From a virus: a DNA stretch of 41,376 bases. Under the pieces are notes generated by a model. That model was not told the origin of the DNA and ran no database searches. It saw only the letters and a program-made list of their open reading frames with translations. The position numbers and the translations under genes are program-made. The stretch lies in IMG/VR virus record IMGVR_UViG_3300047409_000311, positions 1 through 41,376 of that record. One strand, written 5' to 3'. Positions 27,114 through 41,188 of this stretch are shown one piece after another (the first letter of the stretch is position 1; every line of letters begins with the position of its first letter).

Positions 27114-29378
27114 TTATATCCCCATCCATCCCGTGCTTGTCCTGACACCCTCGACCCACTGGCCGCGCGAGAACGAAGCACGCTGCGCCGCGACGATGTC
27201 CAGCCCGGTGTCTGGCCGCGCTTCCTTCAACCCCATCGCCAGCGTTCTCATTGCGTCCGCGCAATTATGAACGACAGCCCCGTTAGCCAATGAAAAGCAT
27301 TCCGCGTCAGGAACCGTCAGACACCACACGTCCGCTGTCTCTCTCAGCGGCTCGGCGGTCGCGGTAAGCCCGCGTTTTACACGTATTCGTGCAATACCGT
27401 TGGGGACGCCCATTAGCTCTGACCAGAGCCGAGTAGACCACGCCACAAGCCTCGCATGGCTTCTCTTCTCGTTTCCATTTAGTCCAGCTTTGAGACTGGA
27501 CAGCGTGTCGCCTGTGCCATGTACGGCCCTCTTCCGATCGGTGCCATTTCGCGGCGGCATCACGAGCGTTCTCGGTGAAATGTTCCGCGACGGTGCCATT
27601 CGCGAGGCGGCGAGCGATGGCCCGTTTGGTAGCGTGTGCCCGATGTTCTCTGGCTGGGGTGCATTGAAGGTTTGATATTTGATTATTTGAGATATTTTCA
27701 TCTCTATGATGGATGTGACAACCGTTCGGAACTGGTCCGAAAGCCGCCGCCCAAACCATGCGGTGGAGTTTTCCGCCTCCGCACGAGAAATACCGCTCAC
27801 TCGGCCAAATGCGATGGAGCTTGCCATCGAAATACTGCGTAAGAGAGTCAAGGACGACAGGATTGGTGAATCCGGCCACAGGAACCCGGCGGATATCCAC
27901 CCTCTTTCCGTCAGAAATAAATGATCCGGCGTGCATTTTACCGAAAGGCCGTCGCTGAACACAACCTCCACAAGTGGGGCATTTCTCCGCGTGATCCTCG
28001 GTGAATGGTATGGCTTCCAACCGCATGGCGTAAGAACCTCTCCTGTTTCAGGGAGGTCCATTATCCGACGTGTTCCGCAACGCGTCAACACACTGGTATC
28101 ACCAGTAAAACAGTGCGAAGACCAATCATGGATCGGCGCGTCCTTGAACACGCCCAGGCGATCGTTGAAGTCGCGATGGTAGTAAACCATGCACTCCCTC
28201 AATCGCTCGGTGCGCTGCCGATCCATCCAGCACCTCGGCAACAGCATCTTCACCGCGTTGATCCCGTCATCGATGTCCTGCCGAGGCACGACACGCACCT
28301 TGCGGCCATTAGCACGCAACAGTTCCTCACGCGTCCTGCCGGTGCCCAGTTCGCGCGCGCCGGCATCGTGCGGCAACAGATCGGTCGCGTATCGATACGG
28401 CTTGCTATCGAGCCATTGCACGTAATGCGTCAGCGGTTCGCCCGTCGCCTCGTAGTAGTCGATGATGTGCACCTCACGACCGACCAGCTGCGCGCAGACT
28501 ATCGCCGTGGCATCGCCTATGCCGAGATCCCACGCTGTCCACACCGGCACAGCCGGGTCATACGGCACCCCGCACAGCCGCCCGTCAGCCTCCAGCGCGG
28601 CCATCTCGGAACGATAGATCGAGCCACGAATGGCCGCATCAAAGCTGCACTCGAGTTCCTGATCATAGGCGTCAGCCGAAAGCATGCGGCGCATGTCGGC
28701 AAGCTCGCCCGCCTCCAGCAGCCCACTCTGTGAAGCCCGCAGCGTCATCGAGAACCACTCGGGGCTGTTCTCGGCCTCCTTATGGATCGCATAGAAGTCG
28801 TTGCGGCCTTTCGGTGTTCCTATGAACACAGCCCAACCATTACGGTCAGCGAGCGACGGGCGCAGCACCTCGGGCCACGCGCGCGGGTCGATGTCACCAT
28901 ACTCATCGAGTACGATGCCGTCAGCGTAAGTGCCGCGCAGCCGTTCGTAGTTCTCCGCGCCATACAATCGCACGCGGCCACCGTTACGGAACCGCACCAT
29001 CAGGTCGCTCTCACGTTGTTCCACGCCAGGAATGTTCGCGGTGTAGCGTTTAAGATATTCCCATGCCGTATCTTTCGCCTGGGCGTATGTAGGCGCGAGA
29101 TAAGCATAGCGTGGATCAGGCTTTTTCGCGCGCACGTCGGCGGGAGCCTGATCCGCTCGCATGGCGGCGTCGATCAGGTCCATGACGCAAGCGACCGTTT
29201 TGCCACCGCGACGATGCACGACGAGGCACGCCCAGCGTTGTTTGCGAGCGTGGAACGGCATGAACGCCTGTCGCGCGCGGTAGCCGAGGTCAATCCGCTG
29301 TGCCTCTGGTGGGAGTGTAGATGCCAATCTGCGGCGCGTCGTGCGAGGCGCTTCCAAAGGTCTCAAAGTCAGCGTCAC
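27114..29378 (-). CDS. Terminase large subunit, interrupted by an intein
   Basis: The 754-codon frame encodes a two-part terminase of about 471 residues. Its ATPase has Walker A (VVHRRGGKT, residues 53-61) and Walker B (GIVLDEYGD, 154-161), then GTPKG (187-191). The nuclease starts with WDLGIGDATAI (283-293) and ends at SH|CADAMR. The intein occupies residues 423-705, placed inside this last conserved nuclease motif, so the enzyme should be inactive until splicing. The listed start is GTG at 29378 and overlaps the small subunit gene by 89 bp; TTG at 29327 is an alternative with less overlap. Confidence 0.92.
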   Translation of the reverse strand: MTLTLRPLEAPRTTRRRLASTLPPEAQRIDLGYRARQAFMPFHARKQRWACLVVHRRGGKTVACVMDLIDAAMRADQAPADVRAKKPDPRYAYLAPTYAQAKDTAWEYLKRYTANIPGVEQRESDLMVRFRNGGRVRLYGAENYERLRGTYADGIVLDEYGDIDPRAWPEVLRPSLADRNGWAVFIGTPKGRNDFYAIHKEAENSPEWFSMTLRASQSGLLEAGELADMRRMLSADAYDQELECSFDAAIRGSIYRSEMAALEADGRLCGVPYDPAVPVWTAWDLGIGDATAIVCAQLVGREVHIIDYYEATGEPLTHYVQWLDSKPYRYATDLLPHDAGARELGTGRTREELLRANGRKVRVVPRQDIDDGINAVKMLLPRCWMDRQRTERLRECMVYYHRDFNDRLGVFKDAPIHDWSSHCFTGDTSVLTRCGTRRIMDLPETGEVLTPCGWKPYHSPRITRRNAPLVEVVFSDGLSVKCTPDHLFLTERGWISAGFLWPDSPILSSLTLLRSISMASSIAFGRVSGISRAEAENSTAWFGRRLSDQFRTVVTSIIEMKISQIIKYQTFNAPQPENIGHTLPNGPSLAASRMAPSRNISPRTLVMPPRNGTDRKRAVHGTGDTLSSLKAGLNGNEKRSHARLVAWSTRLWSELMGVPNGIARIRVKRGLTATAEPLRETADVWCLTVPDAECFSLANGAVVHNCADAMRTLAMGLKEARPDTGLDIVAAQRASFSRGQWVEGVRTSTGWMGI
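27264..28112 (-). other. Intein within the terminase large subunit (283 codons)
   Basis: The N-terminal splice block is CFTGDTSVLT (terminase residues 423-432). Block B is VKCTPDHLFLT (480-490), with the Thr-x-x-His pair. The C-terminal blocks are VWCLTVPDAECFSLANG and AVVHN (684-705), ending His-Asn before +1 Cys 706. All residues expected for class 1 splicing are present. Residues of about 500-680 show no in-frame endonuclease motif and read like unconstrained sequence. This stretch is where a second gene (27307-28026) lies in another frame. Confidence 0.9.
27307..28026 (-). CDS. HNH homing endonuclease gene nested out of frame inside the intein
   Basis: This 239-residue frame is on the same strand as the terminase but in a different reading phase, and lies wholly within the intein. 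Its ATG follows AGGAGAGG about 10 bp upstream. It has an N-terminal Cys cluster (CPTCGGC, 16-22), the HNH_3 signature LHRMVWAAAFGPVP (87-100), IHHRDENISNNQISNL (105-120) with a later His at 128, and a C-terminal zinc finger (CEAC 191-194, YCTNTC 211-216). The motif content makes it very unlikely to be a chance frame. It presumably spreads the intein by cutting intein-free terminase genes. Confidence 0.88.
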   Translation of the reverse strand: MRLEAIPFTEDHAEKCPTCGGCVQRRPFGKMHAGSFISDGKRVDIRRVPVAGFTNPVVLDSLTQYFDGKLHRIWPSERYFSCGGGKLHRMVWAAAFGPVPNGCHIHHRDENISNNQISNLQCTPAREHRAHATKRAIARRLANGTVAEHFTENARDAAAKWHRSEEGRTWHRRHAVQSQSWTKWKREEKPCEACGVVYSALVRANGRPQRYCTNTCKTRAYRDRRAAERDSGRVVSDGS

Positions 29379-29721: not shown

Positions 29722-29824
29722 CTTGCCTCGTCGCGGTTTGTCCGGTGAACGCCTGCCAGCGCAGCACGGCGACATCGACGTATGTCGGGGATATTTCGAT
29801 TGCGTGACACGCGCGGCCGGTCAT
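29711..29824 (-). pseudogene. Stranded C-terminal remnant of the DNA methyltransferase
   Basis: In a frame different from the ParB-methyltransferase gene just upstream, this stretch encodes TGRACHAIEISPTYVDVAVLRWQAFTG split over its length. This is the usual last segment of ParB/N4-N6 methyltransferase fusion proteins. The middle of the enzyme, which would hold the FxGxG SAM-binding motif, is missing between the two parts. It has no start of its own and partly precedes the small terminase start. Confidence 0.7.
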
Positions 29825-30606
29825 CTTGGGGCGCGTAGGTGTGCGTGCCAAATATAACCGACATCGCCGGGGAATAGACTCCACGCTTCGCCCCAGTCGG
29901 CTAGAGTATCGTTTTCAACGCGCCCTTTCGCGGTGTCTTTCCGGTTGCCCATTGATGGCGCCATTTTCGCACGTTCGTCCCGCCACACTGGATCGTAATC
30001 GACCCCATAAGGCGGATCGGTCACCATCAGGTGGGGCTTCACGCCGCCCAGCGTGGCCTCGACCACCCCAGCGTCCGTGCAATCCCCACACACCAGCCGA
30101 TGCCGCCCCAACGTCCACACGTCGCCCAGGCGCGTCACGGGCTCCGCTGGCGGCTCCGGCACGTCGTCGGGATCTGTGAGCCCATCATTCATATCCGCGA
30201 ACAGCCCGACCAACTCCTGCTCACCGAACCCCGTCAGACCAAGATCAAAGCCCACGTCACGCAGATCCATCAACTCAGTCCGCAGCAGGTCGTCGTCCCA
30301 CGAAGCGTTAAGCGCCAGCTTGTTGTCGGCGATCCGCAACGCCTGTTTCTGGGCTTCATCAAGGCCGTGAATAGCGATGGCGGGCACTTCGACCATGCCA
30401 AGTTGCCGCGCGGCGGCCAAACGACCGTGGCCGGCGATCAGCACGCCCGCTTCATCGATCAAAACCGGGGAAGTGAAGCCAAATTCGGTAATGGATCTGA
30501 CTATTTGGGCGATTTGTTCGTCTGAATGTTGACGCGCATTGCGAGAATACGTCGCGATATCAGAGACCTTTGACAGAAAACTCTCGTAAAGGATTACGTT
30601 AGCCAT
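29821..30606 (-). CDS. ParB-like domain with truncated DNA methyltransferase
   Basis: Residues 1-95 form a ParB/Srx-like nuclease domain (SITEFGFTSPVLID, VLIAGHGRLAAARQLG, RIADNKLALNASWD). A methyltransferase N-terminal part follows, with TLGRHRLVCGDCTD and the catalytic motif DPPYG (about 196-200). The protein ends at IWHAHLRAPR, 261 residues, where relatives run on for about 150 more. The expected last segment is present just downstream in another frame. A deletion with frame change has therefore removed the cofactor site. Methylation is unlikely; the ParB-like domain could still act. Confidence 0.8.
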   Translation of the reverse strand: MANVILYESFLSKVSDIATYSRNARQHSDEQIAQIVRSITEFGFTSPVLIDEAGVLIAGHGRLAAARQLGMVEVPAIAIHGLDEAQKQALRIADNKLALNASWDDDLLRTELMDLRDVGFDLGLTGFGEQELVGLFADMNDGLTDPDDVPEPPAEPVTRLGDVWTLGRHRLVCGDCTDAGVVEATLGGVKPHLMVTDPPYGVDYDPVWRDERAKMAPSMGNRKDTAKGRVENDTLADWGEAWSLFPGDVGYIWHAHLRAPR

Positions 30607-32500: not shown

Positions 32501-32887
32501 CTATGGCTTTGCTCGCTTGATCGCGGCGCGAATCTGTTCGGCTGTGACAGGCGCGCCGTGCATCCCGAGGGCGACGAGCCACGCGGTGATGAAGTCGTCC
32601 GCATCAACCCAGTCCTTCTGCGTGACCTGGGCGGGCCATCCCCAGTCGTCGATGTTCTCGGCGAGGCGGTTGGCGGCGATTGTGTATGTGCCGTCACGTG
32701 CCTCGATGCCGAATGCGGTGACGGCCCACTGGCGTCCTTGCCACCACAGGGGGTCGAGAGCTTCGGCGCGGCACTTAACCGGGCGCTCGTCCATGATGAT
32801 GGGCTTGTCGCCTCGGCGTGGCCTGGGCGGGGGGCGGGCAAGAAACTCAGCGGCGGTCATGATCACGAGTTTTTCTCTCTCCGTCAT
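32501..32887 (-). CDS. Hypothetical protein downstream of the origin-like region (128 aa)
   Basis: The ATG at 32887 follows AAGGAA; longer in-frame starts run into the repeat-rich noncoding region and are unlikely. The sequence includes LDPLWWQGRQWAVTAFGIEA, then GTYTIAANRLAE and DADDFITAWLVALGMHG. No family is recognised. It is the last gene of the leftward replication block. Confidence 0.65.
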   Translation of the reverse strand: MTEREKLVIMTAAEFLARPPPRPRRGDKPIIMDERPVKCRAEALDPLWWQGRQWAVTAFGIEARDGTYTIAANRLAENIDDWGWPAQVTQKDWVDADDFITAWLVALGMHGAPVTAEQIRAAIKRAKP

Positions 32888-33366
32888 GGTTTGGGTTCCT
32901 TCCGGTTCTTCTGCTTCCATTTCCGGAGCGCCCATTTGTCCTTGGCCTCGGCTCTGGGGTTGTCGCCGTGGGCTCTGGGGTTGGTTCCCATCGCTCGCGG
33001 GTTGATGCCGTTCGCTCTGGTTCCGGAGTTCGGGTGTGGTTTCATGCGCGCGTCCTTTTGGTTGCATTACCCTCCCGCTGGCGGGGGTCTTCCAAGACCC
33101 CCCGACCTCTGTGGGAGGGTCGGGGTATAAGGGGGGATGTCTCCGCCGCGTCTCCGCAAGGTCTCCGCCTGGCAAAAACGGCGTCCGCCAGCCACTTTCA
33201 TCGGTCATTACGCAGTCAGGCGGCGTATCCATATTTGATCGTTACGCTTGGGTCTCCGCACGTCTCCGGGGGCATTGATATTATTGGCGGAGACATGCCT
33301 ATTCTCATTTTTGTGACTCCGGCCGCGGAGACGGAAATCATGACTTTTGAGTACGTCTCCGTAAAC
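32888..33366. other. Gene-free region with hairpins and iterons, candidate replication origin
   Basis: This 479-bp gap between the PrimPol gene and the next has no supported gene. It contains two adjacent strong hairpins. One is at 33083-33102 (GGGGGTCT, 4-base loop, AGACCCCC). The other is at 33100-33125 (CCCCGACC / GGTCGGGG). Eight copies of GTCTCCG follow at 33139-33361. Around 32940-33050 there is a run of GGTT and CTCTGG-type short repeats. The iterons plus structure next to a primase-helicase gene suggest an origin; this is inference. Confidence 0.55.
33139..33361. repeat. GTCTCCG iterons
   Basis: Direct copies start at 33139, 33150, 33161 (exactly 11 bp apart), 33252, 33262 (10 bp apart) and 33355; inverted copies are at 33288-33294 and 33326-33332. 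Eight copies of a 7-mer in 223 bp is far above chance. The helical phasing suggests a protein binding on one face of the DNA. Confidence 0.85.
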
Positions 33367-35490
33367 CTATGGTTGTAGAACCTTCAGAACCCGGAGGCCT
33401 CTTAGTTTCGCCTTAGAGTCGATTATCTCCACTCTGAGGTATCCTTCGGTGAGCCATGCCTGGACCGCCCTGCCGACTTTTTTCTCATTCACACCGAGGC
33501 GTTGCGAGGCCCACAGTCCTATGTAGCGGCCGTGGTTTCTGGACCTCGGTTCGCTTGACCAGGGGTCTCCGCCTTTCCATGCGCGGTCGATCTCGGCGAA
33601 GATGGCTTCGATGTCCGGCCAGTCCAGTTCGGGACGGTTCTTGATCGGGGTTGTGTTGGCGAAGGCGCCATTATCCCATGACGCGGTGATCTCTCCGCCG
33701 GATGGGGCGTAGTTGGATTTCATCCGGCTTATCAGGCGCGTATTGGCGTCTTCATCGGGTCGGGTCATGTAGATCCGAGACCGGAAGGTATTGTTCCAAC
33801 CGGTTGATCCGCTGGTTCCCGTCCCGTTGGCCAGTCCAGACAGAGATGGATGAGCCGGGATAACGACGGCGCACTCGTAGCGTCGGGCGATATTGCCGCC
33901 GACGCCCTGGACGAACTGTCGCGCCTGTGAGCGGTTGACCTCGTTGCCGCCGAAGATGTCGGCGAGGGTATCGAGGACCACGAGGCGCGGCCGGAATTTA
34001 TCCAGGTACTCGCACATCTGGCCAAACAGGCCGGTGGGTTTCCCTCGGTTTTCCTGGTCGAATGTCATCAGCAGATTATCGAAACCCAGACGCGCGGATA
34101 TCCGCAGGTTTTCGAGGTTTCCCATGGTTACGCCGTAGGATCGGTTGATGCCTTCCTGTCGGCGGTGGAGTTCGTTGGCATCGTCCTCGCACATGAACCC
34201 GAAGGCCCGGCCGCCCCTGATGGTAAGACCGAGCCATGGCAGAGCCAAAGCCGTGGAGCTTAGGAGTTGCTGGGCGAGGAGTGACTTTCCGACACCGCCG
34301 TCACCGTAAAGGCCGGTCACGTATCCGATGGGTATCCACTGATCGATGAGCCATTGGCGGAGCGGCGCGGGCGCGGTCCAGTGGACGGGTGGATTGATGA
34401 CAAGCCCATCACGCGCGTCAGCCTGGGTCTCCGCTCGTGTCTCCGCCACGTCTCCGCGAAAGTCTGACGTCTCCGCAGCGGATTGATCTGAAACGATACT
34501 TTGTTCGAGAGAGTGCCACCAACCGGGGTCGTCCGGTGTTGGCGGCGGCTCCGGCACGTCTGGTTCGGGGTGGAACGTGCCGCCGGCCAGGTGGAACAGC
34601 GTACCGGCGCCGATCTTTGTCGGTGGCGATTCAGGGAAGTGTTGCCAGCGTTTCTCGGTCTCCTCCGCGTTATAGGCTGGATTGCGTTTCGACCATGCGT
34701 CCCACAGTTCGCCGCCAAACGGTGATCCGCCGGTCGCGGCCCAGAGAGCCAGACCGATGCGGGTCCATGCGTCCCAGTCGGCCGGAGCGGTGTTTGGGAT
34801 GGCTGCCATGGCGGCGGCGACGCGGAGCGGTTCGGCCTGGGGATCGGTGGCGGCGTGGTGATCCCGCGCATGGCCGTTGGCGTATCCTGGCGGCTCGGCG
34901 CCGATCAGGGGCGCCACTTCCCGCAGGAACGCCAGCACGGCGTCTTCGGTGATCGCGGGCAGTTGGTTGGCGGTGATCTCGCCGGGTGCCTCCGGGAACC
35001 ATTCCAGATCAGCGCCGCTGTCATGGCGGCCGAAGGCGACGAATTGCTGTCCTGCGCCGAGCACCTCGACCTTCAGGGAGTTTCCTGGCGTGTGCATGAC
35101 GCCGGTGATGGCGACCTTGCCTGGCGCGCCTGTCGCGGCGCGGTAGAGCAGTAGGCAGCGTGGCGAGTTGCGACGTCTGCGGATTGGCGCCTCGCCGAAC
35201 CTGTCCACGGCCATGGCGCGAATGCGGCTCGCGATCCCTGGATCGTCCACGTCGATATCGATAGGCCGCAACCGGTCACCGAGGATTCCGGTGTTTGTCG
35301 CGAACTCAACGGCCGGGATGGTGGTGCAGAACGGCGGGTCTTTAAGGGCTGACTCGCGCCAGTTGTCGCCGAGGGGGCGTTTGCCTGGGGACGGTCCTTT
35401 GGCGTCCCAGTTGTGGATTGGGACGGGCCGGAAGCCGGCCTTCCAGAGGTGTTGACGGGTGGCGGCGATGATATCCAGGGCCTGGGTCAT
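33367..35490 (-). CDS. Replication protein: PrimPol primase-polymerase fused to RepA/RecA-like helicase
   Basis: Residues 1-200 are a bifunctional primase/polymerase domain: KRPLGDNW, TGILGDRLRPIDIDVDD (Asp 78/80 metal site) and a C-terminal His/Arg part. Residues 222-300 look like a PriCT linker domain (DWDAWTRIGLALWAATGG, KRNPAYNAEETEKRW). Residues 370-640 are an AAA_25/RepA-type ATPase with Walker A GDGGVGKS (396-403) and Walker B LVVLD (503-507), then IPAHPSLSG. A winged-helix-like end (GVNEKKVGRAVQAWLTEGYL) follows. Such a protein can prime and unwind at a phage or plasmid origin. Four extra iteron copies lie inside its linker region. Confidence 0.88.
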   Translation of the reverse strand: MTQALDIIAATRQHLWKAGFRPVPIHNWDAKGPSPGKRPLGDNWRESALKDPPFCTTIPAVEFATNTGILGDRLRPIDIDVDDPGIASRIRAMAVDRFGEAPIRRRRNSPRCLLLYRAATGAPGKVAITGVMHTPGNSLKVEVLGAGQQFVAFGRHDSGADLEWFPEAPGEITANQLPAITEDAVLAFLREVAPLIGAEPPGYANGHARDHHAATDPQAEPLRVAAAMAAIPNTAPADWDAWTRIGLALWAATGGSPFGGELWDAWSKRNPAYNAEETEKRWQHFPESPPTKIGAGTLFHLAGGTFHPEPDVPEPPPTPDDPGWWHSLEQSIVSDQSAAETSDFRGDVAETRAETQADARDGLVINPPVHWTAPAPLRQWLIDQWIPIGYVTGLYGDGGVGKSLLAQQLLSSTALALPWLGLTIRGGRAFGFMCEDDANELHRRQEGINRSYGVTMGNLENLRISARLGFDNLLMTFDQENRGKPTGLFGQMCEYLDKFRPRLVVLDTLADIFGGNEVNRSQARQFVQGVGGNIARRYECAVVIPAHPSLSGLANGTGTSGSTGWNNTFRSRIYMTRPDEDANTRLISRMKSNYAPSGGEITASWDNGAFANTTPIKNRPELDWPDIEAIFAEIDRAWKGGDPWSSEPRSRNHGRYIGLWASQRLGVNEKKVGRAVQAWLTEGYLRVEIIDSKAKLRGLRVLKVLQP
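34427..34475. repeat. Second GTCTCCG iteron cluster, inside the replication gene
   Basis: Copies start at 34427, 34439, 34450 and 34469 (steps of 12, 11 and 19 bp). On the coding strand they encode repeated Ala-Glu-Thr in the unstructured linker between primase and helicase. The motif is the same 7-mer as in the intergenic array. A further single copy lies at 33565. Confidence 0.8.
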
Positions 35491-38703: not shown

Positions 38704-39413
38704 GGCAGGTAAACCCTCGCGATGTGCCTGGAGAGCGGCTCCGGGATTTTTGCGATCATGGCGGAGGCGGCTTTGCGGGCGGGGCTGGTGCCGTGGGAAG
38801 GTCGGGGATCGGCTGCCTTGTCGCGTATCCAACTCTTTCCGCCGACGCCTTTGAAGCCTTCCACCAGCGGCCCCGTGGTCAACTTATGCTCGGCCGGATT
38901 GGTCCAGTGTCCGGCCGTGCGATGGGGGACGCCCTTAAACTTCGCTCCCGTCGGCATCAACGCCGGCACGTCGCCGAAAAGGTAGAACGAGCCAAAATTC
39001 CATCTTGCCCGTCCAACCCAAGGCTGCGCCCCTCGGACATTTTCGATGATGATCGGGCAATCGGCCTCTTTCCCAATACGCACGCACGCATTGAACAAGG
39101 CATTCAGTTCTTCTATTCGTTCGGGATGGTTCGGGTCTCCGTGCCATTGCGCCAGAGCCTTCGCCCTTTGCCAAGGCATCGCCATATAGCTGTATTTTTG
39201 GCAGGGAGGGGACGCCGTGATTAAGGAAACTTTGCCGCGAAATTGATGCCCATCGAGAGTCATGATGTCTTGCAACACCAGTTGCGCCGGATACTTATGA
39301 TTGCCGTAGACATGCCGTTCGATGTCAAAACCGACAACATCCCAACCTTCGGCCAGCAGCCCCGACGTCCAGCCACCTAAACCGCAGCACAAATCGACGG
39401 CCAGCGGTTTCAT
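38700..39413 (-). CDS. Phage-type DNA cytosine methyltransferase
   Basis: The N-terminal cofactor motif is VDLCCGLGGWTSGL (6-19). The catalytic motif SPPCQ is at 68-72 (with KYSYMAMPW after it, a feature of phage enzymes) and the ENV motif at 124-126 (IIIENVRGAQPWVGRA). At 237 residues it is short and lacks a large target-recognition domain, as in other phage relatives. It probably protects phage DNA from host restriction. Both ends overlap neighbours by 4 bp. Confidence 0.88.
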   Translation of the reverse strand: MKPLAVDLCCGLGGWTSGLLAEGWDVVGFDIERHVYGNHKYPAQLVLQDIMTLDGHQFRGKVSLITASPPCQKYSYMAMPWQRAKALAQWHGDPNHPERIEELNALFNACVRIGKEADCPIIIENVRGAQPWVGRARWNFGSFYLFGDVPALMPTGAKFKGVPHRTAGHWTNPAEHKLTTGPLVEGFKGVGGKSWIRDKAADPRPSHGTSPARKAASAMIAKIPEPLSRHIARVYLP

Positions 39414-40457: not shown

Positions 40458-40823
40458 GTGGCGAAGGAAAAACGACCAGCGGCATATTCAGCCATGCAAA
40501 AAATGATCGGCAAACGCATCCAGTGGGCACGCCTGCTGGTCGAGCCCAACCGAGCGGCGTTTTGCCGGGATCTGCGCGTGGATCGCACGACCCTTCAGAA
40601 AATCGAGGACGGCGACCGCTCACCCACGGTTTTCCTGGTGGTTGAGCTATCCCACCGCCTGTGTGTGTCGACCGACTATATACTGAAGGGATCGCTCATG
40701 GGCGTGGACGGGGAGTTGGCGGCGCGTCTGATCGAAGCCCACCCGGAACTCCTCGATCACAATCGCACGGCCATGGGCGGCGGCACCGATCCTTCGCCCA
40801 GGAGACGAGTGGGGAAGAAGTAG
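40458..40823 (+). CDS. XRE-family phage repressor (CI-like, short)
   Basis: GTG at 40458 behind GAGAGCGG is preferred (121 residues); ATG at 40494 would give 109. The helix-turn-helix spans about residues 17-65 (IGKRIQWARLLVEPNRAAFC, DLRVDRTTLQKIEDGDRSPT, LSHRLCVSTDYILKG). The C-terminal 45 residues are short and end in a basic tail. There is no S24 peptidase domain, so it would not be inactivated by RecA-stimulated self-cleavage. It is divergent from the Cro-like gene and followed by the operator region of the rightward operon. Confidence 0.82.
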   Translation: MAKEKRPAAYSAMQKMIGKRIQWARLLVEPNRAAFCRDLRVDRTTLQKIEDGDRSPTVFLVVELSHRLCVSTDYILKGSLMGVDGELAARLIEAHPELLDHNRTAMGGGTDPSPRRRVGKK

Positions 40824-41188
40824 CGACTCCGCCGGCTGATTTTCGCGGCTTCCGAAACGGGATAATTTGTGCCGATGGCATTTTGCCACTGGTTTTCCCT
40901 TGACCGTCACGTTCTGAGATGGCAATCTGCCATCCAGACGCACGATCGAAGGGAATCAATTGATGCCACGCAGCATTCTTCATTGTTCAAAACTCCCCGT
41001 GTCCACCAAGTATTTCACTGACGGTGAATGTGGCAGTCCAGGCGTGAGTGGTGTATTTTATCTGTCATCACAATCGAAGCAAGAGGTAAATCGCCTTTCG
41101 ACTCGATTTGATCGCGCGGTAATACTTGACACTGGGCATGACTATTCGGCGCCCGGTATGGCGTCATGCGGTTGTCACAGTTTGAAAC
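40596..41188. repeat. Right copy of the diverged 593-bp direct repeat
   Basis: Matches 1-593 without gaps at a fixed offset of 40595. In the repressor part nearly all changes are silent, which indicates that both copies have been under selection for a working repressor. After 41188 the sequences part inside the Zn-finger gene. Confidence 0.95.
40874..40934. promoter_or_regulatory. Operator pair, right copy
   Basis: GATGGC-N5-GCCACT (40874-40890) and the perfect GATGGC-N5-GCCATC (40918-40934) repeat the pair at 279-339. Both palindromes are unchanged, while the bases between them differ at several positions (for example around 40907-40917). This conservation supports their role as binding sites. 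Confidence 0.7.

Follow-up and report, generated by a model that had tools for sequence, protein, structure and literature searches.

Comparative analysis of the 41,376-base virus record IMGVR_UViG_3300047409_000311, taken whole as the window, revealed a region that is very probably a phage replication origin. The phage's own PrimPol-helicase would bind iterons there through a C-terminal winged helix, and a second cluster of the same iterons, embedded in the gene, would be bound as well. This reading of the region as an origin recognized by its replication protein is supported because a different C-terminal half of that protein, which ends in a predicted winged helix, comes with different iterons (Table 1). 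The co-segregation and the predicted fold thus favor the first of two options offered by an initial annotation of the sequence, namely that the replication protein binds an origin here.

On the two strands of the window together, the heptamer GTCTCCG, which reads CGGAGAC along the gene strand, has 25 copies, compared with 8.1 ± 2.8 copies expected from dinucleotide shuffles, and none of 100 shuffles reached 25. Thirteen of the copies fall within 33139–34475 (1337 bp), with eight in 33139–33361 (223 bp), one at 33565 and four at 34427–34475; the remaining 12 are spread through the other 40 kb, which is near the expected number. The motif is therefore clustered rather than equally frequent throughout, and the recount agrees with the 13 copies in 1.34 kb and eight copies in 223 bp first reported. 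Three phased runs (33139/33150/33161, 33252/33262 and 34427/34439/34450) were also recovered, with one step of 12 bp where all had been given as 10–11 bp. Within the 3′ group of eight, the copies at 33288 and 33326 are inverted. Among four close relatives, a G before CGGAGAC is favored (40 of 49 copies) and no base outside (G)CGGAGAC holds much information; GCGGAGAC represents the window's own iteron motif in duplex form. The lone copy at 33565 is probably incidental, and a longer ORF call at 32501–33232 probably reflects a wrongly chosen start.

Table 1. Features of the putative origin region and replication gene in the window (strand relative to the window sequence; aa, residues of the encoded protein).
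Feature	Position	Strand	Remarks
Block exchanged as a unit between phages	33041–34556	-	Linker, helicase, winged helix, iterons, C-tract and hairpin
Extended hairpin	33069–33120	-	Inner stem 33083–33102, no T-run; possible single-strand initiation or unwinding element
C-tract	33122–33136	-	CCCCCCTTATACCCC; CCCCCCATACCCCCC in relatives
3′ iteron	33139–33145	+	Distal triplet
3′ iteron	33150–33156	+	Distal triplet
3′ iteron	33161–33167	+	Distal triplet
3′ iteron	33252–33258	+	
3′ iteron	33262–33268	+	Motif altered in L004
IHF-like element, degenerate form of that in other loci	33273–33287	+	CATTGATATTATTGG
3′ iteron	33288–33294	-	Inverted
3′ iteron	33326–33332	-	Inverted
3′ iteron	33355–33361	+	First past the stop codon
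Replication gene	33367–35490	-	PrimPol, PriCT-2, linker, AAA_25 (RepA-like) helicase and C-terminal winged helix; 707 aa
Predicted winged helix	33370–33624	-	About aa 623–707; likely iteron reader
Lone motif copy	33565–33571	+	In winged-helix coding region; missing from L002 and L004
RecA-fold helicase domain	33661–34380	-	About aa 371–610
Linker	34381–34527	-	aa 322–370; four iterons in its DNA
Linker iteron	34427–34433	+	Codes AET
Linker iteron	34439–34445	+	Codes AET
Linker iteron	34450–34456	+	Codes RGD (other frame)
Linker iteron	34469–34475	+	Codes AET
PrimPol domain	34990–35454	-	aa 13–167; in the half exchanged independently of the iterons

The protein matches the Pfam families Prim-Pol (6.7e-8), PriCT_2 (1.6e-17) and AAA_25 (4.1e-26); fusions of AEP primases to RepA helicases as such are already known. 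Comparison of a C-terminal-half profile with solved structures identified RSF1010 RepA (1g8y; E 0.0026), and the helicase part of a full-length model resembles RepA chains with a target TM of 0.67–0.70, although other RecA-fold proteins score similarly. A winged helix is confidently predicted for the final 85 residues (AF2 pLDDT about 90), and their best fold matches are winged helices, several of them solved with DNA, together with MCM C-terminal domains. Model pLDDT is below 50 over residues 281–376, a stretch that includes the linker. The initial annotation had placed four motif copies in a disordered linker; the four copies are there, but the disorder is likely rather than demonstrated, because much of the N-terminal half is also of low confidence in the model.

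Three close relatives, L001, L002 and L004, share 94%, 88% and 84% protein identity with the window over the matched parts and retain both clusters with nearly the same spacing. In window-clade relatives, the steps are 11, 11, about 91, about 10, 26, 38 and 29 in the 3′ array and 19, 11 and 12 in the linker (18 in L004, where the last linker copy is inverted); one 3′ copy has been lost in L004. Invariant columns make up 51 of 56 motif positions versus 91 of 174 spacer positions (Fisher p = 4e-8). The 7-mer is thus kept in relatives that have the window-clade C-terminal half. A scan of viral contigs with GTCTCCGCNNNGTCTCCGC returned 53 stretches, including the close relatives L016, L047 and L063, where two matches are separated by about 1.3 kb, the distance seen in the window; most of the remaining stretches have a single match. 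The iteron-free spacer 33220–33247 (gene strand AACGATCAAATATGGATACGCCGC) is nearly unchanged across the window, L001, L002 and L004.

Distant relatives have their own, different iterons directly 3′ of the stop codon: GCGGAGGT or GCGGAAGT in L003, L006 and L010, TTGCGCCATTG in L005, GATTTGTAGC in L007 and TGAGGCC in L008. Three of these, L005, L007 and L008, combine a primase half of the window type (94%, 82% and 76% nucleotide identity, respectively) with iterons unlike those of the window. Their match to the window ceases at about 34541–34564, where the linker starts, and resumes only past the hairpin; L005 and L007 also have the window's upstream sequence. In L004, the upstream sequence and the primase half are unrelated to those of the window; its match covers 33053–34554 plus a later piece, and it has the same iterons. 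Because these natural recombinants pair iterons with the C-terminal and not the primase half, the determinant of iteron sequence is placed in the linker-helicase-winged helix block. The modeled fold of the winged helix suggests that this domain is the iteron reader, although exchange of the C-terminal half as one block means that it is not separated from the helicase as specificity determinant. The initial annotation had regarded absence of the motif from relatives with the same replication gene as evidence against its reading. Relatives with the same primase half do lack the 7-mer, but they have a different C-terminal half and a different iteron, which helps the reading. The recombinants represent a natural domain-swap experiment that shows which half of the primase-helicase recognizes the origin, and iteron specificity in the family is therefore directly testable and perhaps predictable from the winged helix. 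Exchange of the reader half and its sites as one block also reveals how a phage can switch to a different origin of replication.

The repeats could instead be operators for a phage transcriptional regulator, for example of the replication operon or of the next gene, which likely starts beyond the hairpin; phasing of 10–11 bp is typical of operators too. This is unlikely, as the clusters are found inside the gene and downstream of it, not before the operon, where the sole upstream copy is at 39135, and the 3′ position is constant in dozens of relatives despite their different motifs. The motif also changes together with a block whose only evident gene is the C-terminal half of the replication protein. 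The absence of any other plausible gene from this block and of a cluster before the operon likewise disfavors the second option of the initial annotation, a phage regulator.

The cluster within the coding sequence was compared in eight fused relatives of the same helicase type, window included, with linkers of 126–147 nt. All eight linkers contain the motif of their own clade in two to four copies, giving 28 own-clade versus 2 other-clade copies, and the remainder of the eight genes contains 12 and 4, respectively. It might be argued that selection for protein function maintains a peptide repeat encoded by the linker copies and that the origin is the 3′ cluster alone, as three of the four copies in the window code for AET. 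However, the fourth codes for RGD in another frame, and relatives have AEV, TSA and PPQ, which are encoded by the other iteron sequence or by inverted copies. Random synonymous recoding also seldom yields the observed copy number (for seven linkers P is about 0.005 or lower, and for the L006 linker it is 0.049, the four window-clade sequences being closely related and not independent), which makes a peptide repeat highly improbable. As the linker copies vary in both reading frame and orientation, it is the DNA that is under selection. These comparisons strongly support the earlier proposal that the linker codons have been shaped by the DNA motif. The linker is a clear case of a DNA binding site dictating protein sequence, with relatives reading differing frames and orientations. 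Iteron-coded C-terminal tails are present in L003, L006, L068 and L087.

A gene-strand C-tract with a central TA is found in 31 of 41 loci compared with 1 of 532 control windows, with a stable hairpin often following it. Two of the loci in these tallies, L107 and L118, had been found by the C-tract pattern, and the count without both is 29 of 39. A 16-base C-tract probe used as an unbiased detector matched 21 stretches, four of which appear to be origins of this kind (L107, L108, L118 and L120), whereas the others look like chance or coding matches. Recognition by the PrimPol domain is unlikely as the sole explanation of the C-tract, because a C-tract is also present in L074, whose primase is of the Toprim type. 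The initial annotation described two strong adjacent hairpins; both are present (33083–33102 and 33101–33126), but they overlap slightly, and the form kept in relatives is a single extended stem that contains the first of them. A role of this hairpin as an intrinsic terminator was rejected, as a T-run is absent in the window and in most relatives.

The strict IHF consensus occurs at 19 sites over the 41 loci versus 0.55 expected. The window has only the degenerate form, and IHF is therefore not claimed for it. An TAAGTCATTGATTTCATT-like element lies between iteron groups within 250 bases past the helicase stop in L083, L087, L097, L104 and others, and in many loci its complement agrees with WATCAANNNNTTR, the IHF consensus. 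No DnaA box was found near the window origin, and among the loci scanned only L074 has them.

Cumulative GC skew is lowest at 30.5 kb and stays low in a broad trough as far as 32.5 kb, which puts the minimum 1–3 kb from the cluster. The skew analysis proposed in the initial annotation thus puts the minimum near the cluster and not at it, which is suggestive but lends weak support. The same minimum would fit a model in which the iterons mainly limit replication by handcuffing or titration and the true start is elsewhere, for example at 30.5–32 kb, and iteron arrays of plasmids do serve copy control. Against this, the C-tract and hairpin are kept directly after the iterons in relatives, an arrangement to be expected at an origin, and the pRN1 and SaPI precedents have the origin 3′ of the gene, so that a purely limiting role seems very unlikely.

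For the origin reading, a mechanism is proposed where the C-terminal winged helix binds the (G)CGGAGAC iterons and the RepA-like helicase is assembled into hexamers at the cluster immediately beyond the 3′ end of its own gene. The SaPI Rep, Cch2, pRN1 and RSF1010 systems suggest by analogy that the DNA would then be opened close to the C-tract and hairpin, where the first primers could be synthesized by the PrimPol domain of the same protein. The linker cluster, about 0.9–1.3 kb away, would bind the same protein and is probably an accessory site that serves nucleation, DNA looping or the control of copy number. The open-access literature yielded no experiment on binding or replication for any family member.

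Such an origin would work like those of SaPI Rep, pRN1 and lambda O, with an exact fit to none. For SaPI Rep and SCCmec Cch2, the repeats that immediately follow the gene of the initiator helicase are recognized by the C-terminal domain of that protein (PMC7581432). The window cluster is also directly 3′ of a helicase gene, and co-segregation points to reading by the C-terminal half, but the window helicase has a RepA-like RecA fold fused to PrimPol, whereas the SaPI and Cch2 primase is separate, and the window has an extra cluster in its linker codons. The SaPI Rep helicase is of another type than the AAA_25/RSF1010 RepA-like RecA fold. In pRN1 ORF904 and the Bordetella phage BIP-1 type, a primase-helicase-winged helix fusion is followed by a long stem-loop 3′ of the gene; this origin is iteron-free and needs the stem-loop alone, the helicase is SF3, and repeats found in a phage of this type were judged not to be an origin (PMC4234260). 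The window shares the AEP primase, predicted winged helix and 3′ stem-loop, but differs in its RepA-like helicase, its iterons and a hairpin (33069–33120) smaller than the 100-nt pRN1 loop.

Lambdoid phage O proteins are encoded by genes with internal iterons, and additional iterons add residues to the protein (PMC7466680). The window iterons are also mid-gene in an initiator, but the O origin is the in-gene cluster, whereas the window adds a 3′ cluster. No O-family DNA-binding domain was among the Pfam or PHROG hits of the window and, to our knowledge, lambda O is neither a primase nor a helicase. RSF1010 combines a RepA-type helicase, iterons and priming stem-loops in its RepA/RepB′/RepC system (summarised in PMC4234260). 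A RepA-like helicase, iterons and a stem-loop with a possible role in initiation are also present in the window, but RSF1010 uses three separate proteins, with RepC reading the iterons, and the window helicase protein carries its own predicted winged helix.

The nearest named helicase relative is the ATPase/RepA of Wolbachia phage WO (KX522565 gwv_1128; 47% over 240 aa). Directly after the gwv_1128 stop codon is an AGTTGGCA repeat cluster (L128 4203–4450, KX522565), and this equivalent position makes it a candidate origin of phage WO on sequence grounds. The N-terminal part of the WO protein differs in matching a Toprim-like family and not PrimPol, and no C-tract was found at the locus. Iterons are not mentioned in a 2022 genomics paper on phage WO.

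Searches with a C-terminal alignment yielded 18 viral loci as well as 24 genome loci, almost all of the genomes being alphaproteobacterial by record title, after a genome scan with a single protein had found no relative; plasmid relatives were essentially absent. An 8-mer cluster at p ≤ 0.01 lies within 450 bases past the stop in 30 of 41 loci, and 116 of 1158 control windows reached the local cluster value, mostly in loci with weak clusters. The clusters of L073, L077, L095, L099, L103 and L008 are weak, and L085, L086 and L091 have no significant cluster in the 450 bases after the stop. Many iterons of the family start with TGC. The primase part varies, with PrimPol or PriCT-2 in most loci tested and a Toprim-like domain in L074 and phage WO. 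We tentatively suggest that these loci might represent a widespread class of alphaproteobacterial phage origin, apparently undescribed in the open-access literature. It would consist of a portable cassette of RepA-like helicase, winged helix, private iterons, C-tract and hairpin that is swapped whole and joined to PrimPol or Toprim primases, with linker codons partly written by iterons and two binding clusters flanking the reader domain, the linker cluster being a second required site. The 3′ signature of iterons, C-tract and hairpin allows origins to be located in many uncharacterized alphaproteobacterial prophages. A 24-copy 8-mer array (AGGGCGAC) is present in L081 at about 7565, about 2.4 kb beyond the helicase gene.

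Elsewhere in the window, positions 1–593 and 40596–41188 form a near-terminal direct repeat of 593 bp with 96.6% identity, which could reflect a duplicated segment or, alternatively, strain variation in a map that is circular or terminally redundant. A terminase-like protein (27114–29378, minus strand) weakly matches the intein splicing domain in its C-terminal part, at an E value of 9e-5 that falls short of Pfam's cut-off, and the best phage family for a ParB-like protein (29821–30606, minus strand) is annotated as DNA methyltransferase.
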